NCBI RefSeq assembly: GCF_013426735.1
Contig: NZ_AP023272.1
Location: 1,222,501-1,286,500, forward strand
DNA from: Agrobacterium vitis
GTDB lineage: Bacteria; Pseudomonadota; Alphaproteobacteria; Rhizobiales; Rhizobiaceae
Direction of reading: 5' to 3'
DNA length: 64,000 nucleotides
Position 1 is the stretch's first letter. Every line of letters starts with the position of its first letter. Below are positions 46,791 through 49,606 of this stretch, piece after piece. The notes beneath the pieces were generated by a model. The model ran no database searches. It worked only from the letters and a program-made list of their open reading frames with translations, and was not told the DNA's origin. A program made the position numbers and the translations under genes.

Positions 46791-46864
46791 AAATCCACGA
46801 AGGTTTTATTTGTTTAAAAATACCTTTAAAAGATATGGCTTTTAGAGGGTTTCAGGGAAAACCT

Positions 46865-46901
46865 AGAGTCTGTCTGGCTCAATCTGAACCTGACAGACTC
46901 T
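46865..46901. repeat. 10-bp perfect inverted repeat near the prophage edge
   Basis: AGAGTCTGTC and GACAGACTCT with a 17-base spacer, inside the 317-base gap 46692-47008. The gap holds a promoter, this repeat and a terminator; the 62-codon frame across it does not look real. Confidence 0.6.
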
Positions 46902-46924
46902 CAGCGAAGGAGATGCTGGGATGG

Positions 46925-46955
46925 AAAAAGGTCGGTGTGGCGCGGCGCGACCTTT
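46925..46955 (-). terminator. Terminator of the com-like operon
   Basis: Minus-strand AAAGGTCG, 13-base loop, CGACCTTT followed by TT (five T in all). It lies 54 bases past the formyltransferase-like stop. Confidence 0.8.
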
Positions 46956-47008
46956 CGGACAAATCGGTAGCAGCTTCTGGACGCGAAAACTTAAATTTGT
47001 CAGTGCGG

Positions 47009-47572
47009 TTATGCCACCCCTAGGCTAATCTCCTCCTGATCTTCAGCCGGAACGAACCCATAGACCGATAGATGGTCGGCAGCCCTCACCAGCATCTCGA
47101 CACCCATGGGTGCAAGCGCCCTGCGCCAGAGGCTGATTGCCGTCTCGCCTTCATGAATGAAGCACCAGTTTTGGAAAGCCAAAGGCCCGGCGTCCATGGC
47201 GTCAGTGAGGTGATAGACAGTGCCGCCCGTAATGCGGTCTCCGGCATTTATGGCGTCCTCAATTGAATGACGCCCTTTGTGTAGAGGCAGCAGCGACGGA
47301 TGATAGCCGATGGCGTGGGAGGCTATAGCTCTGACTCCCGCTGGAATGAAGACGAACGCGTGGGCGCAAATCAGCAGATCAACAGGGTGGCGGAGAAGCG
47401 GCTGCAAGCCTTCCGCCTTATAGCAGATAATCGGAATGCCCGCCTCTATGGCTGTCGTGTGTAATCGGTCTGTTTCGTTCGGGACCGCCACAAAACCGAT
47501 CTCATACGATTGCCGGAGCTGGTCAAAGACCTGATGCGCCAACCACTTTTGGCCAATGATACCAATCTTCAT
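47009..47572 (-). CDS. Phage formyltransferase-like protein
   Basis: A 187-aa protein with the Formyl_trans_N fold: KIGIIGQKWLAHQVF, then AIGYHPSLLPLHKGRHSIEDAI and GGTVYHLTDAMDAGPL. The catalytic triad of such enzymes is Asn-His-Asp; here His91 and Asp127 are kept but the Asn position is Gly89. So it may use a different donor or mechanism. The C-terminal OB domain of Met-tRNA formyltransferase is absent. It overlaps the ABC-GNAT gene by ATGA, so both probably act in one process. Its role in the phage is unknown. Confidence 0.8.
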   Translation of the reverse strand: MKIGIIGQKWLAHQVFDQLRQSYEIGFVAVPNETDRLHTTAIEAGIPIICYKAEGLQPLLRHPVDLLICAHAFVFIPAGVRAIASHAIGYHPSLLPLHKGRHSIEDAINAGDRITGGTVYHLTDAMDAGPLAFQNWCFIHEGETAISLWRRALAPMGVEMLVRAADHLSVYGFVPAEDQEEISLGVA

Positions 47573-48672
47573 GCGCGGATCTCCGTCCCGTCAATGTAGC
47601 GAAAGCCTTGGACAGCCCGGAAGTGGCCTCCGTAGCCTGTTTTCATGTTGCTGCCCTCGGCGCTTTGCCGTTTGCTCGCGCCATAAAGAACACTGGAAAC
47701 TTGCGTCCATTTAGAGTCGCGGCGCAGTGCTGCCGCGAGACCGGGATGCGATGTGTGGAACAGTGTCGGCATCGGTAGCCCGAAGCGGTTTTGGCCCCGC
47801 CGCCATGCGGCGCAAACGGCATTTAGAAACCGCATGCCGACGCCCGCACCTTGCCATTCCGGCATGACGACCAGACGGCACGCACGCGCCTCGACCATGC
47901 CGGGCCGAGTGGAAAAGGCCACATGCGCAACAGGCTCACCATCGACAAAGGCGACGTAGCAAGTTGCTGCGATCATATGCGGCAGCTTCAGATAATGATG
48001 CGGCTCAAAATAGCGCCACCATTGCCAATTGGTCTGGCGGATTTCCACGGTGATCTTGGGCCGTTGCCGATGACACCTCCCGGTGAACTCACCTGTCGCT
48101 GTGTCATAGACCCAATCGGGGTCGAGCCAATCGATAATATCATAATGACAAGACAGCAGAACGGCCCGCCCTTTGGTGCGCCGCCACGCCTTGCCAAAGG
48201 CTAACGCCCCGACTTTGGCAATCTGCCGGTCAACGACACTGGTAAACTCATCAATGACAATCTCTTTGGGCTGATCACAGACGATCCGGGCAAGGTCTGC
48301 CCGGAACTTTTCGCCGTTAGAAAGCACGGCATAAGGCCGCAGCCAGCTTGGCACAGAGCCAAGCCCGACCGAGGCAAGTGCCGCCGTGGCGTCGTTGAAA
48401 TCACCGTCGCGGGCAATCACATCAATGATCGGCTGATCGTTCGGCCACTCCAGTTTGGCAATGCGGTCCCCATCAAACATGTGTTTGCCGAGCGAAGTTT
48501 TGCCCGAACCGGAAGGGCCGACAATCAGGCCAAGGCTCCAGTCCATGTCTTCAATTGGCAGATCAGCCGTTAGATCAAAGCTGCTGCCATCCTCGACATT
48601 AAACAGGGATTTGACCCTTGCCGCGCGGTAGCTGTCGAAATCCGGGCAGGAATTGGTAATGGTCAGCTTCAT
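47569..48672 (-). CDS. ABC-ATPase fused to a GNAT acyltransferase domain
   Basis: A 367-aa fusion. The N-terminal half is an ABC-type ATPase: Walker A GPSGSGKTS (52-60), signature-like LSNGEKFRADLARI (117-130), Walker B EIVIDE (137-142) and switch His176 in LLSCHYDI. It has no membrane segments. The C-terminal half (about 210-340) is GNAT-like, with RLVVMPEWQGAGVG (266-279) as the acyl-CoA loop. It sits directly after a Com-like gene, where Mu has mom (a GNAT-fold DNA-modifying enzyme). A mom-like role is therefore plausible but inferred. Confidence 0.8.
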   Translation of the reverse strand: MKLTITNSCPDFDSYRAARVKSLFNVEDGSSFDLTADLPIEDMDWSLGLIVGPSGSGKTSLGKHMFDGDRIAKLEWPNDQPIIDVIARDGDFNDATAALASVGLGSVPSWLRPYAVLSNGEKFRADLARIVCDQPKEIVIDEFTSVVDRQIAKVGALAFGKAWRRTKGRAVLLSCHYDIIDWLDPDWVYDTATGEFTGRCHRQRPKITVEIRQTNWQWWRYFEPHHYLKLPHMIAATCYVAFVDGEPVAHVAFSTRPGMVEARACRLVVMPEWQGAGVGMRFLNAVCAAWRRGQNRFGLPMPTLFHTSHPGLAAALRRDSKWTQVSSVLYGASKRQSAEGSNMKTGYGGHFRAVQGFRYIDGTEIRA

Positions 48673-48845
48673 GTCACCACCACCTTGATCTTGCAGGTGC
48701 GGATCGCGGTGAGTGCATCATAGAGCAACTCTTGGGCTTTCTCGTCTTCACAAATCAGAATGACGCCCTGCTGGTGGCGATGACGGTGGCGGTTTCTGCC
48801 CGGTGCTTTGGTAGGCAATGGCGGCAGGTCAGTTTCAGTTGGCAT
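48669..48845 (-). CDS. 58-aa protein between com-like and ABC-GNAT genes
   Basis: ATG at 48845 lies 11 bases inside the com-like gene's end, and the stop overlaps the ABC-GNAT start (ATGA). The N-terminus is Pro/Thr-rich with a His/Arg run (GRNRHRHRHQQG), then GVILICEDEKAQELLYDAL and KIKVVVT. It is not recognised. Tight overlaps on both sides support a real gene; the His/Arg run could bind metal or nucleic acid. Confidence 0.65.
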   Translation of the reverse strand: MPTETDLPPLPTKAPGRNRHRHRHQQGVILICEDEKAQELLYDALTAIRTCKIKVVVT

Positions 48846-49014
48846 TATAAGCCGGTTCTCCGTTTGGCCGCTCCTGGCGATCTGGTACGGGCTCGGCTGG
48901 CCTCAAGTGATTGATGGTGCCGCAGCGGCGGCACTTTATTTCGATGTCCCCGGCGAATGCCCGCCCCGCCTTGAACAAAAGGGCGGTGCATGTGCCGCAA
49001 CGGATATTTTTCAT
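48835..49014 (-). CDS. com: Com-like zinc-finger translational regulator
   Basis: A 59-aa protein, MKNIRCGTCTALLFKAG at the start, then IEIKCRRCGTINHLRP. The CxxC...CxxC pattern and the MKxIRCxxCxxLLFKA opening match the Com protein of phage Mu, which binds mom mRNA and allows its translation. As in Mu, it is the first gene of the operon before a GNAT-containing gene. The ribosome-binding site is weak. A GATTC (CcrM-type GANTC) site lies at 49029-49033, 15 bases before the ATG. Confidence 0.85.
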   Translation of the reverse strand: MKNIRCGTCTALLFKAGRAFAGDIEIKCRRCGTINHLRPAEPVPDRQERPNGEPAYNAN

Positions 49015-49128
49015 TTTCTAACGCTCAAGATTCCGATTATGACCGCGCTCTGCCTTCGGGCAGAACGGGTGGACAGTTGAGCGTGACTTTCTGTCGGACG
49101 GGGTTGGTCGCCAAACTAGACCCGTCTT

Positions 49129-49165: not shown

Positions 49166-49606
49166 TCAGAACTGCGCATAGAGATCGATCACGGCCTGTG
49201 GGCATTCCGGCCAGCTCGCGTCAGCCAGATAGTTCGCTTCCATATCTTCGGCCAACTCCGCGAACCGACCGCGCATGGCCGTCACCCATTCGATGGACTG
49301 GCTGGCGGCGGCAACGATGGCCTTTTCTTCTGCGGTTCGATTGGCTTCCGTTTTGGCGCTGATAGCGGCGGTCATCGACGTGACGTTCATTTGAGCCTCG
49401 GACGAGCCAACCGCATAGATGCGGCGGCGGCATTCGGCTTTGACTGCTTCCCGGTGCGAGAGTGCTTTGGCCTGCTTGATTACGGTATCGGGAACGCCAG
49501 CATCGGCCAGAGCCGACGAAGTGAAATCAACATACTGCTGGCCATTATGCTCAAGGCTGATCAAAGTTTCGGATGGGGTAGCAATTACGGATGTTTCTAC
49601 GGTCAT
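49166..49606 (-). CDS. Phage protein after the tail fibre, possible fibre assembly factor
   Basis: A 146-aa acidic, largely helical protein (MNVTSMTAAISAKTEANRTA, AIVAAASQSIEWVTAMRGR). The C-terminal SWPECPQAVIDLYAQF recalls small proteins that follow tail fibres. No family is certain. It lies 13 bases after the fibre gene on the same strand. Confidence 0.6.
   Translation of the reverse strand: MTVETSVIATPSETLISLEHNGQQYVDFTSSALADAGVPDTVIKQAKALSHREAVKAECRRRIYAVGSSEAQMNVTSMTAAISAKTEANRTAEEKAIVAAASQSIEWVTAMRGRFAELAEDMEANYLADASWPECPQAVIDLYAQF

Follow-up and report, generated by a model that had tools for sequence, protein, structure and literature searches.

Phage Mu carries the translational activator Com, and the gene that Com controls there is mom. 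The RNA target of Com, defined by systematic evolution of ligands by exponential enrichment (SELEX) and footprinting, is CC(N)2-3GAG in a hairpin loop, with GAAUGCCUGCGAGCAUCCCACGGAG as the Mu site (passages of PMC6483171 on this target). Separately, an ABC-ATPase combined with a GNAT domain has already been predicted to acyl-modify a DNA base (Iyer et al. 2013, cited in the section of PMC7824862 that gives phage pT24 as an example), and phage DNA-modification enzymes are accompanied by ParB-like proteins (sections of PMC12704722 and PMC12783734). As for formyl transfer, an Asn is described as crucial in the enzymes FMT, ArnA, and GART, FDH has Ile at that position, and changing Ile104 to Asn leaves <10% hydrolase activity (PMC4388273); FDH moves the formyl group to a phosphopantetheine thiol, and HypX has been proposed to make formyl-coenzyme A (formyl-CoA) (PMC6802093). 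Here we analyze a four-gene cassette (com, p58, ABC-GNAT, and a gene that we call FMT for its formyltransferase-like product) in a 64,000-nt stretch of Agrobacterium vitis DNA (NZ_AP023272.1, 1,222,501-1,286,500). This whole stretch is called the window, and its positions are used throughout unless a contig position is named. A preliminary description of this DNA had proposed a mom-like hypermodification system that combines two acyl-type transfers. On sequence grounds, we consider it highly probable that the cassette encodes a DNA modification under Com control; the two sequential transfers survive only as an improbable rival.

The first gene had been described as encoding a Com-like protein with two CxxC pairs, and its matches to PF10122 and phrog_6417 agree (Table 1). 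Its Zn_ribbon_Com domain has the four Cys, at positions 6, 9, 28, and 31, that are invariant across 27 Com proteins, and we assign it to Com on this basis. A Com profile scan of viral contigs gave at least 510 confirmed loci, and in the best 80 of these the controlled gene encodes a methyltransferase in 72, Mom in 1, and ABC-GNAT after p58 in 6, the last locus being unreadable because its contig ends too early. The methyltransferases were called by tblastn to named phage enzymes in 47 cases and later in 25 more, with representatives confirmed by Pfam; one (L122) has a generic methyltransferase domain only, and a few are truncated at contig ends. Thirty-four named phage records have a Com match. 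Among the seven inspected, the controlled gene encodes Mom in Mu and JD024 and a DNA methyltransferase in B3, KS5, and Smp131, while Komp_PAO1_1 carries the same cassette after Com and DVM-2008 has a protein without a Pfam match in this place. Across the viral set and the named phages, Com is therefore accompanied almost exclusively by DNA modification. Because the slot otherwise holds methyltransferases and Mom, we take DNA to be the likely target of the cassette as well.

The Com target recurs together with the gene. Near the com 3′ end we find a hairpin of four pairs with a loop of 5 to 7 bases ending in GA; the one in the window contains CCAGGAG and has U-G as its outermost pair (Table 1), which places a candidate CC(N)2-3GAG hairpin before the gene that Com would control. 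The search was anchored on GC...GAGC, which forces the two inner pairs, so that the test lies in the two outer ones alone; duplicate regions entered the counts a single time, and L043, L189, L199, and L227 were left out because their Com end was not located. Both outer pairs form in 48 of 63 motif-bearing cassette loci (shuffled mean 22.7, maximum 33, 0/10000 as high) and in 102 of 121 across all loci (shuffled mean 40.4, maximum 58). The motif with at least four pairs is present in 75/98 cassette regions versus 1.7 shuffled, in 48/62 methyltransferase regions versus 1.4, and in 5/5 named phages. The 33 distinct hairpins with a six-base loop have pairing in 98.5% of cells, and the 14 cells changed on both sides are matched by 0/500 shuffles and by no slid control; the number of pairs changed on both sides, two, is a weaker result, reached by 26/500 shuffles and by slides of +2 and +3. 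Among five-base-loop hairpins that encode Asp/Glu-Arg-x-Glu-Arg, pairing of the silent third positions in the Asp and Arg codons holds in 44/44 cases (shuffled mean 37.8, 0/10000 as high), or in 55/57 with Glu included (mean 32.3), in a test that pools cassette and methyltransferase loci, many of them related. Coding for the protein does not by itself account for this pairing. Several loci (e.g., L044 and L094) have two Com-like hairpins about 22-27 nt apart at the com 3′ end, in agreement with the bipartite SELEX motif. A Mu-like translation-inhibitor hairpin may form across the p58 start: some individual loci fold in this manner, but neither alignment nor stability lends support. When 17 sequences of close relatives are aligned, no long stem is conserved over the p58 start, and in the fold model the start codon is partly paired, in a region whose stability is at the level of shuffles.

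The p58 protein has no Pfam match, ParB_N included. Its family aligns with the C termini of the longer proteins encoded before ABC-GNAT in other loci, and a profile of 23 short p58 proteins matches, with 98.1% probability over 38 columns, the final columns for 23 distant ParB-like proteins; by these two alignments, p58 is therefore a homologue of the tail of a ParB-like partner, without the ParB domain. The long upstream proteins, distant set included, match ParB_N at E 0.01 or better in 46 of the 80 scanned (of 86). In the 44 loci that have the tail and no detected Com, the tail open reading frame (ORF) is at least 140 aa long in 17 and short in 27; long tail ORFs occur in 0/111 Com loci. The near-universal adjacency of the two genes suggests that p58 binds ABC-GNAT.

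As proposed previously, the third gene encodes an ABC-ATPase fused to a GNAT domain (PF13508 2.3e-6, PF00583 3.8e-6, PF00005 6.2e-6). It belongs to a large family, with 7855/7999 scored candidates passing E 1e-10. The ATPase and CoA motifs look active (Walker A in 148/162, Walker B in 160/162, QGxGxG in 161/162). With an ABC ATPase and a GNAT in one protein, it has the make-up of the predicted ABC-ATPase/GNAT DNA-modification family, and the genome of Tenacibaculum phage pT24 contains a homologue (35% identity over 79%). It gives no match to the Mom family PF25680 up to E 1, a profile against which Mu Mom scores 2.1e-75. A structure search with the whole model returned mostly ABC chains, with RimI as the GNAT match listed, and the lack of further GNAT matches in such a search is uninformative.

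Conservation was counted over loci with room, in the best 80 of 489 confirmed viral relatives and the best 80 of 165 from GTDB, with a few phages present in both sets. FMT follows ABC-GNAT in 61/67 viral and 66/79 GTDB loci (127/146 combined), a p58-type tail precedes it in 77/78 and 78/80, and Com is found in 64/78 and 47/80. The linkage that the preliminary description had asked to see in other genomes is conserved, and because FMT and the p58-type tail recur beside ABC-GNAT in most loci with room, the association of the cassette genes is not due to chance. Substitutions between close relatives are mostly silent, with a ratio of nonsynonymous to synonymous rates (dN/dS) of about 0.07-0.14 for ABC-GNAT (four comparisons) and 0.13 for p58 (two); between the window and L238, dN is 0.029 and dS 0.44 for ABC-GNAT, and dN is 0.030 and dS 0.23 for p58. 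For FMT, silent sites are saturated against its relatives (nonsynonymous and synonymous proportions pN 0.26-0.28 and pS 0.79-0.82, three comparisons).

The product of the fourth gene is formyltransferase-like (PF00551, 2.3e-18), and the replacement of its catalytic Asn by Gly, already pointed out, is real and common to its relatives. Its motif HPSLLPLHKG (HxSLLPxxxG) and its His, Ser, and Asp place it by sequence in the 10-formyl-tetrahydrofolate (10-formyl-THF) formyltransferase superfamily; G88, H90, S92, and D126 are invariant in 38/38, and the catalytic Asp was recovered by pattern in 122/124 homologues. Asn two residues before the His occurs in 0/124 matched homologues (Gly 106, Ala 7, Ile 5, Ser 4, Val 2). 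The 5/129 homologues that failed to match the pattern comprise three wrong-frame ORFs and two variant motifs that, by eye, have Gly and Ile. Judged by this position, FMT would fall outside the amine N-formyltransferases Fmt, PurN, and ArnA, which have the catalytic Asn. Its top structural match is the FDH hydrolase domain, with scores of 24.3 for Fmt, 20.2 for PurN, and 19.8 for HypX, the latter level with PurN. The FDH architecture, a hydrolase followed by carrier and dehydrogenase domains, is not found in this protein of 187 aa, which consists of the hydrolase-type domain alone. Scanning viral contigs with FMT by itself returned nothing.

From these data we propose the following scheme. Late in infection com would be transcribed, and Com would bind the hairpin and turn on translation of p58 and the two coupled genes. 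Taken as the tail left over from an ancestral ParB-like partner, p58 would dock to ABC-GNAT, whose ATPase would engage or remodel DNA upon ATP binding and so make a base amine reachable. FMT would transfer formyl from 10-formyl-THF to the thiol of CoA, and the GNAT domain would move the acyl group from the CoA thioester to the base amine, leaving an N-formylated base; phage DNA modified in this way would evade host restriction. FMT is given the donor-making role because FDH is its top structural match, Asn is found in 0/124 homologues, and FDH and HypX offer thiol chemistry. We regard the arguments for and against the proposal as a whole, i.e., Com-switched acylation of bases in the phage genome with FMT making the formyl-CoA donor, as evenly balanced; the formyl-CoA route, considered by itself on the sequence evidence, is put forward tentatively.

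Several observations weigh against this scheme. In the tally of 80 Com loci, many are close relatives and not independent events, and short p58-type tails occur in 27/44 loci without detected Com. Under the anchored rule the motif is absent from 35/98 cassette loci (8/62 methyltransferase loci and 1/5 named loci, the last being Mu, whose hairpin lies beyond the allowed offset range), and the motif with at least four pairs is missing in 23/98 cassette loci. The minimum-energy fold of the window contains only part of the hairpin, and the stability of this region is no greater than that of shuffles (z 0.27), which leaves a Mu-type translation-inhibitor structure unsupported. The structural ranking of FMT does not prove its reaction: FDH is itself a hydrolase, and a thiol acceptor for FMT is a proposal, as is formyl-CoA synthesis by HypX. 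Lastly, FMT was undetected in 19/146 near-family loci with room (at least one of them, L255, has an FMT-like ORF that escaped the rule), and none lies within 4 kb in 80 distant ABC-GNAT loci, the best 80 of at least 585 from a mixed-alignment search. Because FMT was not detected in these 19/146 near and 80/80 distant loci, we read it as an accessory of one subfamily, with the partner tail and ABC-GNAT as the core.

Other loci have a different accessory set. In four viral loci of the Jace type, which lack FMT (L087 5098-6209 from phage Jace, L264 1796-2826, L266 1916-2970, and L300 3917-4895), FMT's place next to ParB and ABC-GNAT is taken by an aspartate decarboxylase (PF02261, all at 1.1e-29 or better) together with a short class-III CoA-transferase-like gene (PF02515, from 3.6e-10 to 7.8e-5, the weakest match falling slightly short of the curated cut-off). 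Aspartate decarboxylase produces beta-alanine, and together with the CoA-transferase it might yield beta-alanyl-CoA. That two unrelated accessory sets could each make an unusual acyl-CoA supports the idea that the accessory genes set the transferred group. The other downstream clusters at distant loci consist of short phage genes or of what look by eye like DNA-packaging genes, the Pfam scan having covered the PanD/CoA-transferase set. A broader and speculative reading joins these points: FMT-made formyl-CoA would serve to N-formylate phage DNA bases, and ABC-GNAT proteins would be modular acyl-CoA-to-DNA writers whose neighboring genes determine what is transferred (formyl for FMT, perhaps beta-alanyl for aspartate decarboxylase plus CoA-transferase, acetyl where there is no such neighbor), Mu-like phages having brought such a writer under Com and retained the ParB tail alone.

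The absence of FMT from the distant loci bears on a rival in which the GNAT domain draws on acetyl-CoA, while FMT hydrolyzes 10-formyl-THF and so moves the host one-carbon pool toward THF as phage DNA is made. Such plain acetylation would agree with the FDH-like active site of FMT and with the lack of FMT within 4 kb of ABC-GNAT at those loci (best 80 of at least 585). However, FMT overlaps ABC-GNAT by 4 bases and is tied to one ABC-GNAT subfamily (127/146 versus 0/80), which suggests shared chemistry, and we find this account doubtful. The two sequential transfers mentioned at the outset would have the GNAT domain add to a base an amino-bearing acyl group, such as glycyl, whose free amine FMT would then N-formylate much as Fmt does with Met-tRNA; membership of FMT in the 10-formyl-THF transferase superfamily and its co-encoding with a GNAT fit this, but the crucial Asn is lacking in all 124 homologues and FMT comes closest in structure to FDH rather than to an amine transferase, which makes this rival improbable. 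The least likely rival has ABC-GNAT acylating a host protein or tRNA in takeover, or the cassette acting as a moron-type defense against other phages, given that GNATs are often protein acetyltransferases, that RimI is the GNAT match listed, and that the ABC part weakly matches PADLOC mad3 (3.4e-7), but the Com slot otherwise holds methyltransferases and Mom, ParB-like proteins go with phage DNA-modification enzymes (the same sections of PMC12704722 and PMC12783734), and DNA acylation was predicted earlier for ABC-ATPase plus GNAT (a passage of PMC7824862).

The features of the cassette are collected in Table 1.

Table 1. Features of the Com-led cassette and its borders (window positions)
Feature	Position	Strand	Description
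com	48835..49014	-	Zinc-ribbon translational activator by sequence, 59 aa; PF10122 E 7e-15, phrog_6417 8e-13
Com-target RNA hairpin	48868..48880	-	Predicted; UCGC-CAGGA-GCGG, motif CC(N)2GAG; 22 nt before p58 ATG
p58	48669..48845	-	Free-standing homologue of ParB-protein C-terminal tail; presumed ABC-GNAT partner; phrog_28816 9.5e-10
ABC-GNAT	47569..48672	-	ABC-type ATPase (about residues 1-201) fused to GNAT (about 207-366)
FMT	47009..47572	-	Putative FDH-hydrolase-like 10-formyl-THF-dependent formyltransferase, 187 aa; His/Ser/Asp kept, Asn replaced by Gly
Prophage right end	46917..47008	.	Host homology from about 46916; relative G012 matches 46916 and lower only
GANTC (CcrM-type) site	49029..49033	.	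First base 19 nt upstream of com start; possible methylation-sensitive com-promoter element

The four minus-strand ORFs overlap by 11, 4, and 4 bases, as described before. Around them lie virion genes for an E-type capsid protein, Mu Gp36, sheath, tube, tape measure, GpU, GpD, and baseplate, with a P2-type tail, and outside the window the same genome encodes a Mu-type transposase (phrog_310; HTH_Tnp_Mu_1), a transposition protein, a late activator, an endolysin, a terminase, and a portal. With its Mu-type transposase, B protein, late activator, and Mu virion genes, the element is a Mu-like transposable phage. Host homology in the related genome G012 stops near 46916, about 92 bp beyond the FMT stop, and the cassette therefore terminates the prophage; the left host flank of the related genome is at contig position 1308339, and the prophage is about 38.9 kb long. 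The virion genes and this boundary bear out the earlier placement of the cassette at the distal end of a Mu-like late region. The terminator claimed to follow the cassette was not found: the minus strand from FMT to 46700 shows no terminator-like site. At 46856-46900, just beyond the prophage end, is a repeat of about 45 bp that looks palindromic, with >30 matches in its own genome and many in genus mates. Elsewhere in the genome, outside the prophage, C1:1731905-1732519 matches DDE_2 (the Mu transposase core family) and is perhaps part of a second Mu-like element.

Immediately before com, at 49166-49606, is a 146-aa ORF without a Pfam or PHROG match. Closer to com, a GANTC site lies at -16 to -24 in 16 of 20 unique alpha-type cassette upstreams. 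The site occurs upstream of com in 18/34 of L097-L133, the closest Com relatives, versus 6/114 in the rest, an approximate contrast in that the alpha-type group was set by organism name (GTDB loci) or sequence similarity (viral contigs). All four letters occur as its middle base, and GANTC is depleted in the window (56 versus 276 expected). The genome encodes a 388-aa protein with N6_N4_Mtase and RAMA domains, the make-up of CcrM. Mu mom is controlled by Dam methylation of GATC. Rhizobiales loci (e.g., L009) also have a conserved block around CGTCACACCCG about 40-75 nt before com and, likewise before com, the GC-rich palindrome CCCTGCAGGG; the two may form a late-activator site.

Com, its Mu hairpin, and the ABC-GNAT prediction were already known. 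As far as the openly licensed literature shows, the following are new: the filling of the Com slot in company with FMT, an operator that covaries among Com phages, the reading of p58 as a ParB tail left on its own, the donor model proposed above, and the GANTC site before com. No description of FMT with ABC-GNAT was found in the searches of that literature, and Iyer et al. 2013, known to us through its citation, may already mention a formyltransferase; the passages of PMC517821 on "mom" and "formyltransferase" are unrelated to the cassette. If true, the proposal would name the missing chemistry for the large ABC-GNAT family, whose modification is an open prediction, and would tie folate one-carbon metabolism to DNA camouflage. 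It would further suggest that phage DNA-modification genes are generally switched at the RNA level by Com through a conserved operator, and Com hairpins could guide the discovery of new modification enzymes downstream.

Compared with Mu com-mom, the cassette is likewise a right-end late operon with a Com zinc ribbon, a Com hairpin just before the controlled gene (AUGC-CUGCGA-GCAU 16 nt before mom, versus 22 nt before p58), and, close to the promoter, a site of methylation type (GANTC, versus GATC in Mu). Both have a GNAT-fold effector (the Mom fold being taken from a passage of PMC7824862); unlike Mom, that of the cassette joins an ABC-ATPase to a GNAT with a CoA motif and is accompanied by two extra genes. 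The ABC-ATPase plus GNAT system for which acyl modification of a DNA base is predicted is matched through the homologue in the pT24 genome, which may be the named protein; to this system the cassette adds Com control, a p58 reduced to the ParB tail, and FMT, none of which is mentioned in the relevant section of PMC7824862. With the FDH hydrolase and HypX N-terminal domains FMT shares its fold, HxSLLPxxxG, His/Ser/Asp, and a non-Asn residue at the FDH Ile104 position, whereas it is free-standing, without the carrier/dehydrogenase part of FDH or the C-terminal domain of HypX. The ParB - ABC-GNAT loci of Gordonia phages, Jace, and Streptococcus and Lactococcus P335-type phages have a homologous ABC-GNAT and an overlapping upstream partner; the partners tested share the C-terminal tail of p58, and Gordonia phage Axumite also has FMT. 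The distant ParB - ABC-GNAT group is without FMT, the Jace type having PanD and CoA-transferase-like genes, and where all these loci have a ParB-like protein the cassette has Com and p58.

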